Source: Neckera pumila (taxonomy: Eukaryota; Streptophyta; Bryopsida; Hypnales; Neckeraceae). Taken from it: 64,000 nucleotides of DNA. Position numbers and translations under genes: made by a program. The stretch lies in contig OZ018412.1 of NCBI GenBank assembly GCA_963969595.1, positions 28,334,339 through 28,398,338 on the forward strand, read 5' to 3'. Positions 16,103 through 54,732 of the stretch are shown piece after piece. Every line of letters starts with the position of its first letter. Position 1 is the first letter of the stretch. Below the pieces are notes generated by a model. That model searched no databases, was not told the origin of the DNA, and was given only the letters and a program-made list of their open reading frames with translations.

Positions 16103-19100
16103 TGTCGTAGCACAGAAAGCACAAAATCCTTCCTTAAGGCCTTAGTGGACCCTAAAGTGACTCGTGTATCGTTCCGCAGAGATCTTGATGTAATTCTCCT
16201 AATTGGCCGGAATGAAGTGAGTTAATATCCCAAAACAAACCCCAAGTACTAGTCTAGACCGGTTCCAACTCTAGTAATCCGGAACCGGAAACTCCTTTCC
16301 CACGTATATATCTATCCGGTCTAAAATATTTAACTATGTAATAAAATTCGAGTTTAACCTTTGGACCAAGAGGGATCTGCAACTTGGGTTTCAGGAAGGA
16401 CGCTTAACTCCTACCCTCCGAGTTTTAACGTGTCAGAAGATCCACGATGTAAACTTCAAAAGAAAACCTCGACAAAACGACGAGAAAGAGACTTTCCTCA
16501 CAACTAGACCGGATTGACTACTCAGGTTAGCAGGTCACGCAAGACAGTCTGGATTCTCCTAACAATTACTACAACGACAGACCACAAGACAATCCACGGC
16601 CTAGGTAGAGAAGGGGCGTCAGGAAAACATAGGAGAGCTATGATACTTCTTGACAAAAGCAAGTTCTAATCCTTGCAAGGAAATCCTGTGGTATCCCGTC
16701 TAACACACAATCTCTCCAGGGACCGGATACTTCTTGTATCCGGGTATCACTTCCTCCTTACCCACTCTGCACAATCTCACTGCTCTCACAATAACACGGA
16801 CAAGTGCTAAAAGGTACAGCTCACGGTTTGTGAATTGAATAACTTTAATGGCATTTGCAGAAAAACTGGGAATACAAAGTATGAAAATGCTACCCGGATT
16901 CAACCTAAAATCCGCCTTCAAATACTAAACTGCCCTTCAAACTCAAAAAGCGCCTAAGGCCCAAAACAGCAAGAGGAATGACACGTTTCATTCCTGACTT
17001 CCTGTCAATTTTAGGCAACCTAAGCTACAATCAAAAAGTTTCCACTTAATGTGGATCTTAGATCCTAAAAATGCGGACTCAACTACTTGAGTCCTAACTC
17101 CTTTTACTAAAAATATTCCTACTTAACTACTTGTCAAGAAAACTAAGCATGCAGCCCCACGATCACTGCCAGAATCTTCACCTACTTTCTAGTCTTCTTA
17201 ATTGGAGAGAATCCTGCTTTCGCTGGTACCTTCTGGGCCACGGGCTTCTTTCCGGTCTGCTGTCTCGCCATCTGCTTAGATCGGGCTTTGGCCTTCTCCC
17301 TGGCCGCCTTCGCTTTTGTTGCTCGGGTCTCTGCCAGAGCCTGATCAGGATCTAAATATGGCTCAGAATCCTCATCGGACTCTGATTCCTCTTCCTCATC
17401 ATTGGAATCCTCTTCGTCTTCTTCCTCTTCCTGAGCCCTAATGAATTTCTTCTTAGCCGACGGTGGCTCAGGCACCTTTCTCTCCTGCGGGACTGGAGCA
17501 GGTCTGGCCACCTTGCTCTGAGGTGTTGCCTCTCCTCCAACCGGTTTCCTGATCATACCTTTACTGGGTGATCCTGATGAAGTCCCGCGATCGGCTCCAG
17601 TCTCCGTCTTCACCACGGACTGCATCAGAGTCGTCATCTTCTCGGCTTCACCGAACTGTACCTTCTTCCCCGGAGTCTTGGGAGAAGACTTGGAAGGGGA
17701 GAGACTGCTGATATTCTTCGTCTTGGTTCCCTCCTCTGGAGTAGATCCTCCTGGTCCGGTTTCCAGTCCCTGTGCCTTGGCTGGATCCGGTGCCGTCACC
17801 TTTGTAATCTCCAAATCGTCATCCTCAGGAATTGGGTCGAGTACCTTGGTGCTTTTCACCTCAGTCTGCTGCTCCTAACTCGTCTTGGTTTCCTGGTGCT
17901 CCTCAGGTACAGGTAAAGCAGGTTGTTCGTGAGAAGTCTCACCTTTACCCGTATCTACTGCTGCCGACTGCTGAACTGGCTCTTGATCTGGTTCCGGTCT
18001 CGGCGCAGGCACACTGTGAGGATTCACCTCACGCATAACTTCTCGCAGCTGCTCCAACGTCGACTCCATCTTCTTATGGTAAGTGATCATCGCCAATAGG
18101 AGCTTTTGGTGCAGTTGTCTTCCCTCCGTCATCACTTGTTGATCAAACAAGTTAGCCTTGTTGACCACTTCACCCGGATGGGTGATAAATTCCCGGATTC
18201 AGGAAAGGGTATACTTTGTCTGCTTGGAGAACGTCCTCTCCAACTCCACCTCTTCCGTTTTCTGGCGCAACTCTTGTTTAAGAGCGGCCACTTGGCCGGA
18301 AAGTTTCACCAATTCCTCCTTATTCTCATTCTTCTCCTTCTCCCGGTTGAGCCGGATCACCTGAGTCAAGGCTTGTGCTGGGTGGTCAACGCCCATCGTC
18401 TGGCAGATGGCCTGCATTGCACCTTCTACCACCGCGTATCGTTTTCTAAAATCACTCAGATCTCTGGTGATCCTGTCCAAAGGCTCTTCTCCCCAGACCG
18501 GATCGGTATCCTTGGTCTGTTCTCTCTCTACCGGATCCTTTCCTCTCGTTTCCTCACCCTTATCCTCAGCTTCACTCTTGTCCTCCTCTTCATCAGACTC
18601 ATCCTCATTGTCCTCATCGGAGGACTCTTCCTCGTTTCCGGTCTCCTGATCTAAGTCAGGGACCTCAAATTCTACTAATGCCGCGGCTGCCTCATACTCT
18701 ACCTCTTCCTCTTTTGTCATCACCTCCTCGGAATTATATAGGTGATAAAGGAAAGGACAGATGGCGGAAGGCTTAGCCTTCCCGACATTGTTGACCATTT
18801 TTAATACTTGGTCCTGAATTACTAAACCCCAATCTACCTTCCGGTCTCCTGACAGCGCGCCAAAGACTGTGTTGGCGAGTGTCAGAGAGACCCGGCTTGG
18901 CCTTTCCGGGTTAAGAATGGCCAAGACGTAATGCAGTAGACGCCTCTCTCTCTCATTGATACAATCGGTAACCGCGAACCCATCCTTCTTGCTAATGGGG
19001 CTATGAAACTTACCCACTGTGAATTGGTCCTTCCGGGATGCGCTGCCTTTGCCCTCCCGATCGAACCGGTACACCTTTCTCCACATCTCCGCCGTCCACT

Positions 19101-39269: not shown

Positions 39270-40225
39270 ACCACCAGCCTCCATATCTTAACCCCTAAAG
39301 GACCAACATCCGTTTTTTGGATGTATAGAAATTTTGGGCAGGTACGTGTGACTAGAGAGATCCATACGTGAGGCTGAAATTTTAATAGAAGATGGGGGCG
39401 AGGAATATCTTCATGTGTACCAAGTTTCATAACATTTCGAAATACGAGTCAAAAGTTGTGACCTGATATGTTACTTTTTTTCGTAACCGGGCAGTTTGGG
39501 CAGATTAGAAATGATCATTTTTTCCGGATTTTTTTTTTTGAAATTGGTTCTCTACATTTATATATACTTAAAAAGCTTTGAGTCACTCCATTTCAATCAA
39601 TGAGTCAAAAGTTATGAGGGTTTTTGAATTGCAGGCAGTTATGGATTCTCTACTCTAAAAAAAACTTTAAAGTCGTTTATTTAACTCAATTTTCAAAAAT
39701 TTTGGAAAAAAATAAAATCTTAGGATGTAGATTGATTATTACAACACTACAACCGTTGGGATTAGCATTTTTAAATTCCATGATTAAATTTTTAACAATT
39801 TAGTATTTTGAGTCATTTTCTACTTCTTTCTACTTACTATTTTTTTCCTATATGTTGTACAATTCCAAATGATGTGAAATTTTTCAAGCATATAGACAAC
39901 TTGTTTAGGAAACTGAATTCAAAGAAGCAACACCTTTATCGGCATTTTTTCATTGAAAAGTGAGCTTGTAAGTGCAGCTGCCCGGTTTTTCGCAGGATTG
40001 AAAAAATGGTTTTCAAGACTTTGAATGCTTATATCTTATGATCCACACGGTGGAATTTTCTGAAATTTTTACCACATGTTTTCAAAATATCATACTACAA
40101 GATCCGTTGGTTACATGTGTCAAAAATTGTTTTTTTCCAAAAATTTGGTAGTTGTATTAGAAATGGCAGTTTTGGAGCGTTTTTGGTGATTACATAGTCA
40201 TGAAACTTTAGGGGTTAATTCCAGT
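39270..40225 (+). repeat. R-family AT-rich repeat, copy R2
   Basis: The inverse counterpart of 59.0-59.94 kb over nearly its full length. Shared landmarks: AGAAATTTTGGGCAGGTAC, GGAATATCTTCATGTGTA, TGATATGTTACTTTTTTTCG, GTTGTATTAGAAATGGCAG and TTTTGGTGATTACATAGTC. No conserved frame and no poly-A tail are seen. It may be a non-autonomous transposon or a decayed 3'/LTR fragment; its class is unknown. Confidence 0.7.
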
Positions 40226-41075: not shown

Positions 41076-43238
41076 TCTTTTTCTTTTTTCAATCTCCTTA
41101 CTCTTAAGCAATTTCCAAAAAGTGATCTTCTTCAATATTCTTCCTTTGTTTAGAAATTACCTTGTATGAGTCTCTAATTTGAGCGTCTAAAATTACAAGA
41201 TTGTCTTTGTAACAAGTATTGAATGCTCAAAGACTACAAAACCAACATCCAAACTTATGGCTATTCACCTAACTTTCAATTACAATCAGCTTCTAATATG
41301 GAATTTTCAATAATCAATATAATTAATTATACTTAGCACCATTTCTTCATCCTTGCCCCATTTTTTAGGTTATTTTATTTCATCCTTTTTGTAAATTATT
41401 TCCTGCAGGTTTGTAATTTGAAACCATTCACAATAATTAAAGACCATTTCTAGACATTTTATAAGGGCCATTTGAAGAGCATTGGTAATTTTTGATTCCC
41501 CTACTATAATCCCTAAGGCCTTAAAGTCCCAAGGCCAATTTCTTGCCCCAAACCACCCTAAACTGCCAAGTTTGTTACATTTGCCAAAATAAATAAATAA
41601 GAACATTTTTTCAGAATCTAACCATAGGATTTTGTATTTAACTTGTATAAGATCATGTGATAAAAATTTCATAAAGTTTGACCACATAGATTGCAAGATA
41701 TAAGTATTCAAAGTTGAAAAAATAATAATATAAACTTTGATTTGCAAATCCAAATGACTTTGACTTCCATTTGTAGAAAGATTTTGACTACAAACTTTGA
41801 ATTAAGAAAATCTTGTGTTGAAAAATTGAATTGAGAGTCTTGGAATTAATTTTACAAAAGAAAATATTTGATTTCCATTCTCTAAAATTCTTCAATAGAA
41901 GTAGGTTCAAGATTGAAAAAGAACTAAATCATTAATAACTATGAGATGAGATTGAAATGCAATACTCTTAACAGTGAGATTATTCTAGCAACCAAATTTA
42001 ACCCCGCCCAACAATTTCTACTAAAAAATTGTGAAAACTGCATTGAAAAATGAATCCTACAAGGGCTTTTTCTAAGAAAAAGCTCTAATTGCCTATATAT
42101 TAAGATCGTCCATAATTTTTGCATAATATGTCAAAATGAGATGAATCAAAGCTTTACATTTAGGAAAAAATATAATCTTCTAGAATTTAAAAAAAAATAT
42201 ATTTTGATTTTTTGTGATTTTTTTCATATTATTGACCGAATTCAATTTCAAGCTTTGTGGTATAACTTTTATTCCCAAGTACCAATTGTAATAGAAATTA
42301 TATTCCCACAAAGCTAATCACTTTTATCTATCTTATGAGAAAGTTTCAAAAAGTTTAATAAAAAATTGAGTTATAGGAACCTATCCAAAATCCATTTTCT
42401 TCTCTGAGAAGACAATAGAGTTTCTAGGGGTTGATAGGATATAAATCAGTTTAACAACAAACTTACTTGTCACTTAATTCCTGATAATGGATTATTTGCC
42501 AAAATGGAAGAGCCTATAACACATAAAAATCTCTCAACAAAGCACTTCAAAAATTGAGTGCAAATAAGGCACCTACAGCGACAAAGACAATCCAATCCAA
42601 AAAATATAAGAAGAATTGAAGGAAATAACAACAATCTTTAAAGTAACCTGAACTACAATAAAATTACATCCGAAGTTCAAAACTATTTATTTCTCTTGAA
42701 CTTAGAGCAACAATATACATCTCATAGACTATTATCATTTAGCTACAATAATAATTTCCAAAATTCACACTAAGGCAAGGACCAAAAATCAAGTTACCTA
42801 ATTATAAGCACAAGAGCTGCACTCAGAGAATAGACTTGCAATTGAGAAAAATTAATTGTTTGCATGGCCTACTTGAAGGACTTTCAAATATTTGTTTCAC
42901 ATACTTCCTATTGAAGTCTTGAAAAAGAATCTTTAGATTTTGATGGAAGGATAATTACTATGTGATGGTCCAATGGTCAATTTTCCATCCTTAGGCTTTG
43001 TATTCTTTAAAAAAACAAACCTCTATGAATACCCAAATGCACAGATAACAAACTCTATGAATACCCCCTTCAAGTCATTTCCAACCAACACAATTGTTTA
43101 CAATCTAATCAACATAACTATATTTGCAAACGATGACAAATTACAATGAAAATTTCAGATTACAATTGAATGCAAAAATCATGGTCAAGAGATTCAGATA
43201 AGAGGATAGCCAACAATTTGTCAAAATTGCCAACCGCA
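41076..43238. other. Gene-free AT-rich stretch with an R-family fragment
   Basis: At about 41640-41730, ATCATGTGATAAAAATTTCA and GCAAGATATAAGTATTCAAAG match R4 (59150-59215), in R4 orientation, so a fragment of the R family is present. No genes are seen. The last few hundred bases are the decayed 3' flank of the PPR-A pseudogene. Confidence 0.4.
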
Positions 43239-45933
43239 TCACCAATAATCACCACAAGAAGACACCCCATCTTGGAAGTGGTGAAAGCGACTAGCATCCC
43301 TTACAACAATATCTCGCTCAATGGCCTTTGAGATAAACTTGGTTGCTGTATGGCATTCTAAACATACTCGAAGGTTCTTGAACACCCAAATTGGCTGTCT
43401 AGGGGGTATCCGCATCAGTCCGTAAGCAATAGCCAACTTCTCGCTGTGGGAACAAAGAGTAAGGTCTTTCTCCTCCTCATCAATGTTCTGCAACACTAGC
43501 CGGGTGTCAGGAAAGTAGCCTTTGACCTTAATTGTCTCACTCAATCTCCTCAGCTCAGCATAGATCTCCTTCGCTTCTGCGTGAGAAGTGTTTCCTACGA
43601 CGAAGTCATGGACCTTGTTATCAACTTCAATCCAACTACGCCCTGGCTCCTTGCGTATGCCTCTCTCCTGCATCATAGTGCGCACCCACAACACTTCCTC
43701 CCACTTCCCAGCTGCAGCATAGATATTCGAGAGAAGCACGTATGCAGAAGCATCCTTCGGTTCCAACTTGAGGAGCTCGTTAGCGGCAAGTTTGCCCAAC
43801 TCCACATTACCGTACATTCTACAAGCGCCAAGCAGGGCTCCCCAAGTTGCACCATCTGCTTCCACCGGCATGTTGCCAATCAAGAGCTTTGCTTCCTCCA
43901 AGAGTCCTGCTCGACCAAGGGCATTCACCATGCAGTTACAAAGCTCCACAGTAGGTTCGATGCCATAGTCTTGTGTCATAGCCAATAAAAGTCTACGGCC
44001 CTCATCCACAAGGCCTGAATGACTACAAGCTGACAACAATGCAACGAATCAGATCTCATCAGGCTTCACACCGGCTGCAATCATAGATCTAAAGACTTCC
44101 AGGGCTTCATGCCCACAGCCATATTGAGCAAGTCCTCTAATCATCACGTTCCAAGTAATCACGTTCCGCTCCTCCATCTTGTCAAAAGCCAGGCGCGCAT
44201 CATCGATATTGCCACACTTTGCATACATGTGCACCAGCGCACTGCCCACACGCACATCGGACTCGAATCCGGCTTCACGGCCATGCCTGTGAACCTCCTT
44301 CACCCACTCCAAAGCCCCTGCGCTTGCACATGCATTCAGAATGCTAGCATAAGAGACTGCATCCGGCTTAAAGCCTTCCCGTTGCATTTGCTGAAACAGA
44401 TCATATGCTTCGTGCCCACAGCCATGTTGAGCAAGTCCTCCAATCATCACGTTCCGCTCCTCCATCTTGTCAAAAGCCAGGCGCGCATCATCGATACTGC
44501 CGCACTTTGCATACATGTGCATGAGCGCACTGCTCACACGCACATCGGACTCGAATGTATAATCCATGTAAAAAAAAATACACCTTTTTCAAGACTGTAT
44601 AATTGAACTTTAAAATGTTGTTGAGAGCGCAAAGGAGCGAGAGACGACGCAGCTGCTGCGACCGCTGGAGGACTCCGAAAGCGGAAGAACCTTTATAGTC
44701 TCTTCAACCTATAAATCGCGAAAATGAATTGTCATTATGATTTAAATGACCTTTAAATCCGGCTTCACGGGCATGCCTGTGAACCTCCTTCACCCACTCC
44801 AAAGCCCCTGCGCTTGCACATGCATTCAGAATGCTAGCATAAGTGACTGCATCCGGCTTAAAGCCTTCCCGTTGCATTTGCTGAAACAGTTCATATGCTT
44901 CGTGCCCACAGCCATGCTCTGCAAGTCCTCCAATCATCACGTTCCAAGTAATCACGTCCCGCTCCTCCATCTTGTCAAAAGCCAGGCGTGCATCATCAAT
45001 ACTGCCACACTTTGCATACATGTGCACCAGCACATTGCCCACACGCACATCGACCTCGAATCCGGCTGCACGGGCCTGCGTGTGAACCTCCTTCACCCAC
45101 TCCAAAGCCCCTGCACTTGCACATGCATTCAGGATACTCATATAAGTGATTGCGTTTGGTTTAAAGCCTTCCAGTTGCATTTGAAGAAACAATTTATATG
45201 CTTCGTGCCCACGGCCATGTTGCGCAAGTCCTCCAATTATCAAGTTCCATGAGATCACGTCGTGCTTCTTCATTCGTCCAAAAACTACTCGGGCATCATC
45301 GATACTGCCACAATTTGCATACATGTGCAGAAGCGAACCGCCAACACGCACATCTGATTCAAGCCCAGCATGTCTTACACACGCATGAACTTCTTTGCCC
45401 ACTGCAAAGCTGATGGATTGGCGTAAGCCTTCAGGACGCTCGAGAAAGTAAACGCATCTGGCTGGACCCCTTTTTGGAACATGTGATTGAAAAGTTCCAT
45501 TGCTTTTTCGGCACGCTTGTGCTTTGCATAACCTCCAATCAGGATGTTCCAACTGAAGACGTTCTTCTTCACAAGTTTATCAAACACTCCACGTGCAGCC
45601 TCCAAGTCTCCACACTTGATATACACGCTCACTAGGTTGTTTGCCACATATGTAATCTGCTCCATTCCACTCTGGTTGATGTAGTCGTGAACCTGCTTCG
45701 CCAAATTAACTTTAACGTTTTTCTCCTTCAAGCACCGTCTCAAAACTTCAACATACATATCCGAGTTGATGGCCAAGCCTTGTTCTAGTCGATTCTTCAA
45801 ATTACCAATTGCTTCAATCGTGTTTCTTGCACTTTCCATGGGCGTACGACCGCCACCAACATGTAGAATATGCCTCGACTCTCTTGCAGTACTAGACACA
45901 ATGCGTCTTTTTCCATTGTGGCCCTCCGATATC
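43239..45933 (-). pseudogene. PPR-DYW editing-factor pseudogene (PPR-A)
   Basis: The inverted paralogue of the gene at 52.5-54.7 kb. Several PLS-type PPR triplets of about 101 residues are followed by E and DYW domains (H-S-E-K-L-A, C-L-E-C-H, ending S-S-C-G-D-Y-W). Four lesions: a one-base loss near 45394 that shifts the frame at the codons W-A-K/E-V-H; a 190-bp insertion at 44559-44751; a 15-bp deletion after M-E-E-R-N (about 44455); and TGA at about 44049 where PPR-B has a Ser codon. In addition, the first Cys of the terminal C-x-C is Ser. The exon starts at 45933 right after an AG acceptor. An in-frame stop sits just upstream of that acceptor, so the exon had no start codon of its own before M-E-S-A-R-N (about 45840). 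Confidence 0.85.
44559..44751. mobile_element. About 190-bp insertion inside PPR-A
   Basis: Compared with every other repeat unit, the text between G-F and E-S-D-V-R-V is interrupted by about 190 bp. In gene orientation the flanks share ATT (GGATT before the insert, ATTCGAG after it), a 3-bp duplication. The insert has a T-rich run near its end (GTGTATTTTTTTTTACATGG) and no clear inverted terminal repeat. Class unassigned. It is not an intron, since no AG precedes the resumption. Confidence 0.6.
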
Positions 45934-51000: not shown

Positions 51001-51535
51001 GCTCTTTTCAACTGGCTGGGGACGTACACTTGAAAGGGGGCCAAAGAGTTGAGGAGATTCATTCATATACTTTTTCTGATTAGGAAGTTGGATTTCTATC
51101 TGTGGTGTTACTCTGTTGTTGAAGAGGAACCGGTAGAAGCTTGTGGACACCGAGCCACAAGATGTCTGCATTAATGCACCTTTTATTGCATCATAGGCAA
51201 CAAACGAGAAGCTATTTGGGGCTTGGAGTTGGTGCACGGGTGAGTGAGTGTTGACTTATGACCATACACCTGTTCTACGGAAGTAGTTGGATGACTTGTG
51301 ACTTGTTTAAACTGAACTACCCTGGTCATGTTAGCAACTTATGTTTCCCATACATTTAGGTTCCTCGATAGCAGTATATTGATCAATACGGACTTACGCT
51401 TCTCCCAAACTGACAGGACGTGAACTTGGTTGGTTAGACGTTAAACATTCAATATTAGTACCAATGACTATCTGATGCCCAAACTGCTACCAATTGAATG
51501 TGTTTTTTGACAGACTGGGGAATTTGTGTGACCAG

Positions 51536-52268
51536 GATGTCTGTGTGATCACACTCTTGAAGTCTCCAAGGCTTATACACCCATGTTTATTATTTGTCTC
51601 AGCCTCCCATGGAGGAAGGAACAACGGATCAATTAGGTGTTCATCGTCATCAGTTTGGAGAAAACCCGATGCTTCAGGTATGTTTAATGTGGCCGCTCTC
51701 ATGTACAGAAGCGGGTGCTTTTTGTCGCTTAGGAAGAACATGAATGACATATCTGAAGTATTTAACAGTTGAATCAGGCAAAGTACAGACAATTGAGCAA
51801 GATTGGGAGGAGTATTTTGCGGATCCTTTGCAGTGGTGGGACACCAGATTTTACAAGGTATCACTAGGAATATATCTAAGGCTACCAATTAGTTGATGTT
51901 AGATATTTGTGAAAAGACATTGAGAGGTTATTTATTGCTTGTATAAGGTCTTGGGCAGGTAAACAAGAAGCGTATTACATTTTGATTGGGTTTTGAATTG
52001 AAGTGAAGGCTAATTAGATCACTCCAATGCTTAAGGACATGTGTTCTTTGATTGTTTTTTCACATTGGATTGTGGGTTGTTGGTGTGTATAGATGAATCC
52101 CAAATCACCAGACTTTAAACACAAGGTGACAATGAAAGTGCTCTGGGTAGATGGTTGGTCAACCCCACCATGGGTGAAGGCAATGGTCAAATTGGTGACT
52201 TTAAGCAAATTACCTTCTGGTGGTGGTTATCATACCAATGATTCTCTAGAGATTGTACAACTGAATAG
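51536..52268 (+). CDS. OSB-type PDF-motif exons upstream of PPR-B
   Basis: Exons 51536-51677, 51769-51857 and 52093-52268 have consensus AG/GT borders and mutually consistent phases. The translation is a Ser-rich stretch, then W-E-E-Y-F-A-D-P-L-Q-W-W-D, then N-P-K-S-P-D-F-K-H-K and L-W-V-D-G-W-S-T-P-P-W-V-K-A-M-V. W-W-D followed by P-D-F-x-H-K and L-W is the PDF motif of OSB proteins, which bind single-stranded DNA in plant mitochondria and plastids; only this motif is seen, not the OB-fold. The third exon ends at codons L-N-R at a GT donor. Spliced to an acceptor at 52532 it is in frame with PPR-B. Without that splice the frame stops at 52323. The real first exon and start were not found, so expression is uncertain. 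Confidence 0.6.
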
Positions 52269-52509
52269 GTATTGGCATGAGCATGAGTTGTCTTCCTTTG
52301 TAACAAGAATTGGGTGCAATTGACTTGCTATAGATGATGCTCACACATTGAAGGTGGATGTAATTTGTAATTTGTAATATGTTTTGTTAGGTGTAGTGTG
52401 AAGTATTGTGCTTTTAAGCAGTATAAAGACTGCATACATGCATCCAAGTATTTTTAAATTGATGGAGCAAAATTTTTCACAGTACGAAGTATGAAGGTTT
52501 TTCTTATGA

Positions 52510-54732
52510 ATGGATGGGTATGGATGGGTCAGGTTACCCAAGGGCAATTTTGGGAAGAGAATCACTTTGCCCACTAGTGCCAACGCGCCAAGCCAAGCTT
52601 TTCAAGTTAGTGGTGCAAGTACGTGCTTGCAAAGCGTAACATCCGCTAGTGAAGCAATTGATCTTTTGAAGCACCGACTACAACAGGGCATTGCAGTAGA
52701 CTCGTACTCCTATGTTGAAGTTCTGAAGCGGTGCTTGAAGCCGGAAGACCTTCCGGCAATAAAGCAGGTTCATAAGTGCACCGTTGAGAGCGGCATGCAG
52801 CAGAATACTTTTTTGGCAAACAACCTATTGAATGGATACATCAGATGTGGCAGACTGGAGGATGCACGCAAAGTGTTTGATGAACTTGTGGAGAAGAATG
52901 TTGTTAGTTGGAATGTCATGATTGGAGGTTATGCTCAGCACAGTTGTGGTAAAGACGCCCTGGAAGTTTTCCATCGCATGAGAAAGGAAGGTATGCAACC
53001 TAATGCAGTTACTTACTTGAGCATCCTGAAAGCCTGTGCGAGCCCATCAGCCTTGAAGTGGGTCGAGGAAGTTCATGCATATATCAGAGAGGGTGGGTTC
53101 GAATCAGATGTTCGTGTGGGGACTTCGCTTCTTAAAATGTATGCAAATTCTGGGAACATAAAGGAGGCAAGGAACACTTTTGCTAAGTTGGCGAGTCGCA
53201 ATGTGATTACTTGGACCGTGATGATTGGAGGACTTGCGCAACATGGCTGTGGGTCTGAAGCATATCGACTTCTTCTCCAAATGAAACGGGAAGGTCTCAA
53301 ACCAGACGCCTTTACATATGCGAGTATCCTGAATGCATGTGCAAGCGCGGGGGCTTTGGAGTGGGTCAGGGAAGTTCATAGCCATGTCCGTGAAGCCGGA
53401 TTCGAGTCAGATGTGCGTGTGGGCAACGCGCTGGTGCACATGTATGCGAAGTGTGGCAGTATCGATGATGCGCGACTAGCTTTCGACAAGATGGAGGAAC
53501 GGGACGTGATTACTTGGACCGTGATGATTGGAGGACTTGCGCAACATGGCTGTGGGTCTGAAGCATATCGACTTCTTCTCCAAATGAAACGGGATGGTCT
53601 CAAACCAGACGCCGTTACATATGCGAGTATCCTGAATGCATGTGCAAGCGCGGGGGCTTTGGAGTGGGTCAGGGAGGTTCATAGCCGTGTCCGTGAAGCC
53701 GGATTTGAGTCAGATGTGCGTGTGGGCACCGCACTGGTGCACATGTATGCGAAGTGTGGCAGTATCGATGATGCGCGACTGGCTTTCGACAAGATGGAGG
53801 AACGGGGCGTGATTACTTGGAACGTGATGATTGGTGGACTTGCAGAGCATGGATGTGGGCATGAAGCCCTGGAAGTCTTTAATACTATGATTGCAGACGG
53901 TGTGAAGCCCAGTGAGATCTCATTCGTTGCAGTGTTGTCAGCTTGTAGTCATTCAGGCCTTGTGGACGAGAGCCGTAGACATTTTTTGGCTATGACACAA
54001 GATTATGGCATCGAACCTACTGTGGTGCTTTGTAACTGCATGGTGGATGTTCTTGGCCGAGCAGGACACTTGGAGGAAGCAAAGCTCTTGATTGACAACA
54101 TGCCGGTGGAACCAAATGGTGCAACTTGGGGAGCCTTGCTTGGTGCTTGTAGAACGTACGGTAATGTGGAGTTGGGCAAACTTGCCGCTTATGAGCGTCT
54201 CAAGTTGGAGCCGATGGATGCTTCTGCATACGTGCTTCTCTCGAATATCTATGCTGCAGCTGGCAAGTGGGAGGAGGTGTCGTGGGTGCGCACTATGATG
54301 CAGGAGAGAGGCATACGCAAGGAGCCAGGGCGTAGCTGGATTGAAGTTGATAACAAGGTCCATGACTTTGTCGTAGGGGATACTTCTCACTCAGAAGCGA
54401 AGGAGATCTATGCTGAGCTGAGGAGATTGAGTGAGACAATTAAGGCCGAAGGTTACATTCCTGACACCCGGCTAGTGTTGCGGAACATGGAGGAGGAGGA
54501 GAAAGAACTTGCTCTTTGCTCCCATAGTGAGAGGTTGGCTATTGCTTATGGACTCATGCGGACACCCCTTGGACAACCAATTCGGGTGTTCAAGAACCTT
54601 CGAGTATGTTTAGATTGCCATACAGCAACCAAGTTTATGTCGAAGGTGACTAAACGAGATATTGTTGTGAGGGATGCCAATCGCTTTCACCACTTCCAAG
54701 ATGGGATGTGTTCTTGTGGTGATTACTGGTGA
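52510..54732 (+). CDS. PPR-DYW organelle RNA-editing factor (PPR-B)
   Basis: Predicted site-specific C-to-U editing factor for plastid or mitochondrial transcripts. PPR repeats (about residues 60-510, PLS type, period 101 residues per triplet) bind RNA one repeat per base, and the DYW domain is the cytidine deaminase. Visible marks: repeated N-V-x-S/T-W-N-V-M-I-G-G and A-L-V-H-M-Y-A-K-C-G; the E region with G-A-T-W-G-A-L-L-G-A-C (about 537); the PG box P-G-R-S-W-I-E-V (about 606); the deaminase residues H672-x-E674 and C700-x2-C703-H; and the terminal C734-x-C736-G-D-Y-W740. All catalytic and zinc residues are present. The Met at 52510 is the first in the frame, but conservation with PPR-A begins only at 52533, directly after an AG, so the N-terminus may instead come by splicing from the PDF exons. 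If 52510 is used, the Ser/Thr/Ala-rich first 50 residues could be a transit peptide. Confidence 0.9.
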   Translation: MDGYGWVRLPKGNFGKRITLPTSANAPSQAFQVSGASTCLQSVTSASEAIDLLKHRLQQGIAVDSYSYVEVLKRCLKPEDLPAIKQVHKCTVESGMQQNTFLANNLLNGYIRCGRLEDARKVFDELVEKNVVSWNVMIGGYAQHSCGKDALEVFHRMRKEGMQPNAVTYLSILKACASPSALKWVEEVHAYIREGGFESDVRVGTSLLKMYANSGNIKEARNTFAKLASRNVITWTVMIGGLAQHGCGSEAYRLLLQMKREGLKPDAFTYASILNACASAGALEWVREVHSHVREAGFESDVRVGNALVHMYAKCGSIDDARLAFDKMEERDVITWTVMIGGLAQHGCGSEAYRLLLQMKRDGLKPDAVTYASILNACASAGALEWVREVHSRVREAGFESDVRVGTALVHMYAKCGSIDDARLAFDKMEERGVITWNVMIGGLAEHGCGHEALEVFNTMIADGVKPSEISFVAVLSACSHSGLVDESRRHFLAMTQDYGIEPTVVLCNCMVDVLGRAGHLEEAKLLIDNMPVEPNGATWGALLGACRTYGNVELGKLAAYERLKLEPMDASAYVLLSNIYAAAGKWEEVSWVRTMMQERGIRKEPGRSWIEVDNKVHDFVVGDTSHSEAKEIYAELRRLSETIKAEGYIPDTRLVLRNMEEEEKELALCSHSERLAIAYGLMRTPLGQPIRVFKNLRVCLDCHTATKFMSKVTKRDIVVRDANRFHHFQDGMCSCGDYW
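53200..53805 (+). repeat. Near-identical 303-bp tandem repeat inside PPR-B
   Basis: Two adjacent 303-bp units (about 53200-53502 and 53503-53805) differ at only a handful of bases. Each encodes one 101-residue P-L-S triplet (W-T/N-V-M-I-G-G ... M-E-E-R). This points to recent unequal crossing-over or gene conversion, which changes the number and order of RNA-reading repeats. The pseudogene PPR-A shows the same unit repeated. Confidence 0.85.

Follow-up and report, generated by a model that had tools for sequence, protein, structure and literature searches.

Introduction

DYW deaminase domains carry the signatures HxE and CxxC, and the PPR-DYW editors that contain them are, to our knowledge, described as a PPR array followed by E and DYW domains with nothing ahead of the array. 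PDF motifs are a feature of OSB proteins, whose site of action is organelle DNA (PMC6963530, PMC8330923); the PDF of OSB1 is reported to suffice for binding single-stranded DNA (ssDNA; PMC6963530), and OSB1 to limit mitochondrial R-loops (PMC8330923). Here we describe a gene of the moss Neckera pumila in which a PDF motif appears to be spliced onto a PPR-DYW protein. The gene lies on the plus strand of a 64,000-nucleotide stretch of DNA (assembly GCA_963969595.1, contig OZ018412.1, positions 28,334,339 to 28,398,338; hereafter the window), which also holds an inverted copy of it on the minus strand. An earlier examination of this DNA from its letters alone, the original prediction, had proposed that one mRNA encodes both parts, a combination that it did not recall being described.

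The catalogue of PPR proteins of Physcomitrium patens gives RRM, LAGLIDADG, SMR, NYN, CBS and SAP as extra domains, and "PDF" is absent from the main text of that paper (PMC9459714). A search of the open-licence PMC literature gave no paper on PDF-PPR proteins, the combination with DYW included, and priority for describing the PDF-PPR-DYW architecture is not proven.

Results

Exon structure of the plus-strand gene

The gene was read as five exons encoding an 891-residue product with no internal stop, and every intron is GT-AG (Table 1). The original prediction had located the PDF-to-PPR junction itself, to which exons 1 and 2 are added here. It had assigned the PDF to exon 4, which does carry the motif, though only its second half, the first half (DWEEYFADPLQWWDTRFYK) being encoded by exon 3. 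Downstream of the junction a PLS-type PPR array was recognised by matches to PF13041 and PF01535, with four S-P-L units read, and the E, E+ and DYW domains scored above cut-off (PF20431, PF20430 and PF14432). The E-to-DYW part aligned to the solved PPR-DYW chains 9kfx and 7o4e with the HSE, CxxC and CSCGDYW motifs intact.

The PDF matched the PDF profile built in this analysis at 7e-27. Because the seed of that profile includes these same hits, the match is not an independent test of membership. No matching PDF model was found in Pfam, and a PDB sequence search with the PDF gave nothing convincing (best E 0.63). No SSB-type OB-fold was found in the fusion, whose residues 1-184 gave no Pfam match of any kind at E values up to 5.

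Table 1. Features of the PDF-PPR-DYW gene and of its inverted copy, in window positions
Feature	Position	Strand	Description
Exon 1	51162-51239	+	ATG and basic, acid-free leader MSALMHLLLHHRQQTRSYLGLGVGAR; donor gtgagtga
Exon 2	51536-51677	+	Remainder of leader; phase 1 at end
Exon 3	51778-51857	+	80 bp, phase 1 in, phase 0 out; first half of PDF, ...DWEEYFADPLQWWDTRFYK
Exon 4	52093-52268	+	176 bp, phase 0 in, phase 2 out; second half of PDF (MNPKSPDFKHK...LWVDGWSTPPWVKA) and linker
PDF motif	51804-52194	+	Residues 83-134, split by intron 51858-52092
Intron 4	52269-52532	+	gt...ag; connects PDF exon with PPR exon
Exon 5	52533-54732	+	Linker, PLS-type PPR array, E, E+, DYW, stop
DYW deaminase domain	54451-54729	+	PF14432, 1.3e-42; HSE, CxxC, CSCGDYW end
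Inverted paralogue	47373-43239	-	Exons 47373-47263, 47019-46866, 46773-46694, 46434-46259, 45933-

The PDF-PPR junction

The junction had been proposed from a comparison of the two inverted copies, and its details were borne out. Exon 4 is 176 bp long in both copies and ends in both with an Asn codon and the first two bases of an Arg codon at a GT donor (AAT AG/gtattggc in the plus copy, AAC AG/gtaacttt in the minus copy; the slash marks the splice site). Exon 5 begins directly after an AG (52531-52532 on the plus strand, 45935-45934 on the minus strand), within one base of the coordinates first given, and the phase-2 junction restores AG/G, an Arg codon, joining the two frames in both copies. 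Ahead of the acceptor the minus copy reads TGA ATC AG/G, with the stop (45941-45939) one codon before the split Arg, leaving its PPR exon with internal Met codons and, as had been claimed, without an upstream start. The plus copy does have an ATG in its PPR frame, at 52510 within intron 4, and reading through the donor of that intron leads to a stop at 52321-52323, about 18 codons on.

A database search with the PDF region found M758_8G001900 of Ceratodon purpureus, which reads through the junction unbroken (IVQLNR/LPKGNFGKR in the window gene, IVQANR/LPEGNFGRR in Ceratodon). The junction form NR/LPxGNFGRR occurs in this annotated protein. Sequence comparison supports the proposal that one mRNA encodes the PDF and the PPR-DYW protein; we infer both the RNA that spans the junction and the role of the PDF.

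PDF exons upstream of DYW genes across the genome

The host genome (339.5 Mb on 18 contigs) gave 120 matches to PF14432, which were merged into 116 DYW loci, a figure that counts fragments too; 87 of these loci have an open frame of 600 residues or more. A search with the exon-4 peptide gave 150 matches. A PDF exon lies upstream on the same strand at 84 of the 116 loci, ending 0.75-5.3 kb before the DYW within a search span of 7 kb, and this count is a lower bound as it scored 150 of 161 candidates. No match among the 150 was found downstream of a DYW, or on the strand opposite to it, at a distance of up to 7 kb. Chance neighbourhood of PDF and DYW was rejected on these numbers, 84 same-strand pairings against none otherwise arranged. 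The original prediction had seen one gene pair; by position the architecture extends to the larger DYW class of this genome.

Sequences of 89 of the 116 loci were read as DNA (87 loci and the two window genes), the other 27 being mostly short fragments. Both PDF exons were found in 72 of these 89 genes (70 besides the window pair). Among the 72 members an AG precedes exon 4 in 71, a GT follows exon 3 in 70 and exon 4 measures 176 bp in 67. The exon-4 donor was picked as the phase-2 GT nearest 176 bp, so its GT is given by construction and its other letters are not; it reads gtaact in 40 members, gtattgg in 21 and otherwise in 10, with none found in one. Further upstream, a homologous exon 1 with a GT following it was present in all 16 PDF genes whose upstream sequence was long enough (14 and the two in the window), as was a stretch homologous to exon 2, whose donor could not be placed in one gene (L010).

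The exon-5 acceptor pattern was placed at 48 of the 72 loci and failed on 24. Outside the window an acceptor with the same PPR-exon start was placed in 46 of the 70 loci carrying both PDF exons. A stop and no Met precede the acceptor in 46 of the 48 placeable members, the plus copy in the window being one of the two exceptions. The ATG at 52510 therefore looks like a local accident, and the PPR exon seems normally to depend on splicing unless translation starts at an internal Met.

PDF-DYW loci were frequent near contig ends. The terminal 250 kb at each end of the ten large contigs, zones that make up 1.5% of the length of these contigs, held 27 of the 84 PDF-DYW loci and 5 of the 32 other DYW loci. 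Clusters of this kind were seen at C9:36-88 kb, C6:10-212 kb and C5:28.38-28.45 Mb. The lengths of the PDF-linked PPR frames step by 101 residues, which is one PLS triplet, with 63 of 71 frames within 8 residues of this ladder compared to a chance expectation of 17 in 101; 5 of 15 frames without a PDF fitted it. By the PPR code, the S and P code pairs were canonical in 189 of 196 cases from 15 members, and their order differed in most members. Variability at the code positions (entropy, 101 positions) was not outstanding, L5 ranking 3 and the rest 25 to 64. The code data fit retained RNA reading with differing targets and give no proof of fast target change.

The genome also contains PDFs outside the DYW genes. 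Four loci (L096-L099, at C3:34106000, C1:6174200, C9:6383200 and C8:11421500) hold stand-alone frames of about 120-230 residues with an uninterrupted C-terminal PDF, and neither a PPR nor a recognised OB-fold was found in these four. Together with about 60 further PDF matches they apparently form a dispersed family of PDF-only proteins, of which these four were read. One further locus (L100, C6:8797500-8800300) holds a PDF-PPR copy whose PPR part is broken and which gave no match to DYW, and two similar PDF exons lie close by on C6 (8680604 and 8845028).

Selection on the PDF

Across the family the ratio of nonsynonymous to synonymous substitution rates (dN/dS) was 0.37 for the PDF and 1.19 for the linker, which makes up the final 18 codons of exon 4, calculated from 1828 non-independent pairs of 71 genes. 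Conservation reaches 97% or more at nine positions of the PDF (W, D, W, K, H, K, L, W, P). In the window pair the Nei-Gojobori estimates were 0.33 for the PDF (bootstrap 0.13-0.69), 0.97 for the linker (0.48-2.08), 0.35 for the first PPR part and 0.56 for the leader. Identity between the window gene and Ceratodon was 81% in the PDF and 58% in the linker. By these ratios the PDF is under purifying selection and the adjoining linker is not, suggesting that the PDF is kept for its own sake.

Relatives in other plants

A database search with the PDF region returned 51 candidates and two hits, M758_8G001900 and one protein of the clubmoss Diphasiastrum complanatum. The search requires shared exact words, and relatives that lack them fall outside its reach. 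M758_8G001900 (1122 residues) carries PDF, PPR and DYW and is 76% identical over 97% of the PDF region. A second Ceratodon protein, KC19_6G098400 (696 residues), carries PDF and PPR and ends before the DYW; its PDF region is 59% identical to that of M758_8G001900. Both are database predictions named as hypothetical or PPR-containing. Overall, the window gene shares 59-68% identity with the Ceratodon proteins and 44% with the Diphasiastrum protein.

A search that started from the Diphasiastrum protein P0002 recovered 89 proteins from 147 candidates, namely 86 from Diphasiastrum, two from Cuscuta and P0088. The 86 Diphasiastrum sequences correspond to 81 gene names by hand count. They contain one (39 sequences), two (42) or three (5) PDFs, all of which lie N-terminal to the first PPR core and no further in than residue 341, and 24 of the 86 end in DYW. 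Both Cuscuta proteins match the PDF profile, one with an SSB domain and one without a listed domain. P0088, a Joint Genome Institute metagenome protein from a 3.4 kb contig, has PDF and PPR and matches 40% of the Diphasiastrum query at 63% identity.

A quick tree of the PDFs (58 columns, 67 PDFs from 40 Diphasiastrum proteins) placed the moss and Ceratodon fusions, with two stand-alone PDFs among them, apart from Diphasiastrum with a Shimodaira-Hasegawa-like approximate likelihood ratio support of 95. This tree cannot tell one fusion event in mosses and lycophytes from two.

Origin of the PDF exons

PF00436 gave five matches in the host genome, at C1:33.99 Mb, C3:40.34 Mb and, weakly, C10:14.56 Mb, with none in the window. 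At C1:33.99 Mb exons for an SSB-type OB-fold are followed on the same strand by a weak PDF match, and we read this locus as a true OSB gene; C3:40.34 Mb is a second SSB-type gene. The PDF of the OSB gene is interrupted by a phase-0 intron (WWDNRAKK/PSPKSPDF) and its preceding exon starts in phase 1. The PDF of the fusion is interrupted by a phase-0 intron at the same site (WWDTRFYK/MNPKSPDF), and its exon 3 also starts in phase 1. The shared intron site and phases make it likely that the PDF exons of the fusion descend from an OSB-type gene. As the OB-fold is missing, the domain content makes the gene a PPR-DYW factor that has captured a PDF, rather than an OSB protein.

The likely route to this structure would be one in which the last two exons of an OSB gene, those of the PDF, acquired a donor and were spliced onto a downstream intronless PPR-DYW gene, the OB-fold exons being left out. 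The large family would then have arisen by duplication, roughly one copy in three now lying close to a contig end, and by the gain or loss of whole PLS triplets.

The minus-strand copy

Exons 1-4 and the junction of the minus-strand copy are as in the plus copy, and its PPR-DYW part is broken. A frame shift leads to a first stop at 45377-45375, about 0.2 kb is inserted near 44754-44557 and a TGA stands at 44051-44049; one Cys of the terminal CSC is replaced, giving SSC. Identity between the copies is 64-74% in exons and 49-63% in introns, and a chance likeness was rejected on this difference. The 3' parts of the inverted copies (43035-44556 and 54944-53400) are 88% identical. This exceeds the identity of the 5' exons, suggesting gene conversion in the PPR-DYW part. 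Further inverted repeats lie by the gene pair (39296-40218 with 59915-59016, 83%; 16103-18918 with 32481-29674, 72%), as if a larger segment had been duplicated in inverted orientation.

Discussion

Proposed function of the fusion and points against it

The gene structure and the comparisons above make it probable that one nuclear gene gives one spliced mRNA, and from it an organelle-targeted editor with the order leader, PDF, PLS-type PPR array, E and DYW, in which the PDF would serve as a single-strand-binding module. In such a protein the PPR array would pick an organelle transcript via the PPR code and the DYW domain would deaminate a C to U in it. The PDF, held on a flexible arm, may act as a sequence-independent module that binds single strands and keeps the RNA open, or it may tether the editor to nucleoid ssDNA and nascent transcripts. 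Such a grip or tether would make editing fast and co-transcriptional. In the predicted model of one protein (P0091) the PPR array forms a block with predicted local distance difference test (pLDDT) scores of 81-95, and the linker from PDF to PPR is disordered (pLDDT 23-37).

Several points weigh against this proposal. The same model gives the PDF a fold of low confidence (pLDDT about 47-61). The organelle-targeting leader assigned to residues 1-74 is putative and was judged by eye. PDF exons are absent from 17 of the 89 DYW genes read as DNA, so that the PDF is dispensable for DYW function as such. One of the 72 PDFs has an internal stop (L078), and the aligned exon-1 Met is missing in 2 of 16 genes (L012 and L020). 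The binding reported for a PDF is to ssDNA, and its binding to RNA is inferred.

Alternative explanations

It is conceivable, if doubtful, that the PDF works through protein contact, drawing the editor to the organelle nucleoid or to OSB proteins, and has no RNA binding of its own, a reading that would overlap with the tether suggested above. This would suit the presence of PDF motifs in OSB proteins, with their action at organelle DNA; no result bears on it directly, though OSB1's own PDF was reported to bind ssDNA (PMC6963530).

We consider it unlikely that the gene makes two products, a short leader-PDF protein when intron 4 is retained and the full editor when it is spliced, although this would be compatible with the spliced editor proposed here. 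Examined loci with the gtaact donor, the donor of 40 of the 72 members, hit a stop at the donor itself, the plus copy meets one about 18 codons on, and stand-alone PDF frames exist in the genome; however, translation into a retained intron would be expected to meet an early stop by chance.

Similarly unlikely is a broader proposal, that the PDF-PPR-DYW proteins are a distinct group of nucleoid-tethered, sequence-programmed deaminases, grown large in the moss and in Diphasiastrum by fast turnover of genes and triplets. Here the PDF would grip organelle ssDNA, or at R-loops the displaced strand together with the nascent RNA, and the PPR array would choose the site. Restorer-of-fertility PPR proteins are in conflict with changing organelle sequences, and by analogy the family may possibly have grown through such a conflict. 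Some members might act on DNA.

Slightly less probable again is a passenger PDF, left idle in the editor by an OSB gene that gave promoter, leader and introns. The 17 DYW genes that manage without a PDF are what such a history would allow, but it sits poorly with the low dN/dS of the PDF next to that of the linker in the same exon, with the higher identity of the PDF to Ceratodon and with the one to three PDFs carried by each Diphasiastrum protein. Highly improbable are two separate genes, a leader-PDF gene ending at 52323 and an intronless PPR-DYW gene starting from the ATG at 52510 or an internal Met, since the in-frame ATG of the plus copy, the possible extension of the exon-4 frame to 52323 and the four stand-alone PDF frames are outweighed by the stop and absence of Met before the acceptor in 46 of 48 members, the 176-bp phase-2 exon retained in 67 of 72, the Ceratodon annotation across the junction and the 84 same-strand pairings with none in another arrangement.

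Significance and comparison with known systems

If the single spliced editor proposed here is correct, the PDF at 84 of 116 moss DYW loci and under 81 clubmoss gene names would make a second nucleic-acid-binding module common in these plants. The finding raises the question of whether editing couples to the organelle nucleoid, and the PDF would offer a natural accessory module for engineered PPR editors. DYW-type PPR proteins of P. patens have reportedly been expressed in E. coli (PMC6397227). P. patens (Physcomitrium) is reported to have ten DYW genes and Funaria hygrometrica nine (PMC11770019); why the present host has 116 DYW loci, 87 with a frame of at least 600 residues, becomes a testable question.

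The window gene shares with the PLS-class PPR-DYW factors of C-to-U editing (for example moss PPR56, Arabidopsis At3g63370 and DYW1) the PLS units, the E and E+ domains and a DYW deaminase with HxE, CxxC and the DYW end, and its E-to-DYW part matches the solved chains 9kfx, 7o4e and 7w86. Unlike these known factors the moss gene adds an N-terminal PDF, carried on five-exon genes. With the OSB proteins it has in common the PDF motif, including an intron at the same site and in the same phase as in the OSB gene of its host; the OB-fold of OSB proteins is missing from the fusion, where a PPR-DYW array stands instead. The database proteins M758_8G001900 and KC19_6G098400 of Ceratodon have the same order of PDF and then PPR, with the DYW only in the first. 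The PDF-PPR proteins of Diphasiastrum complanatum also place an N-terminal PDF ahead of the PPR array and differ in having up to three PDFs.

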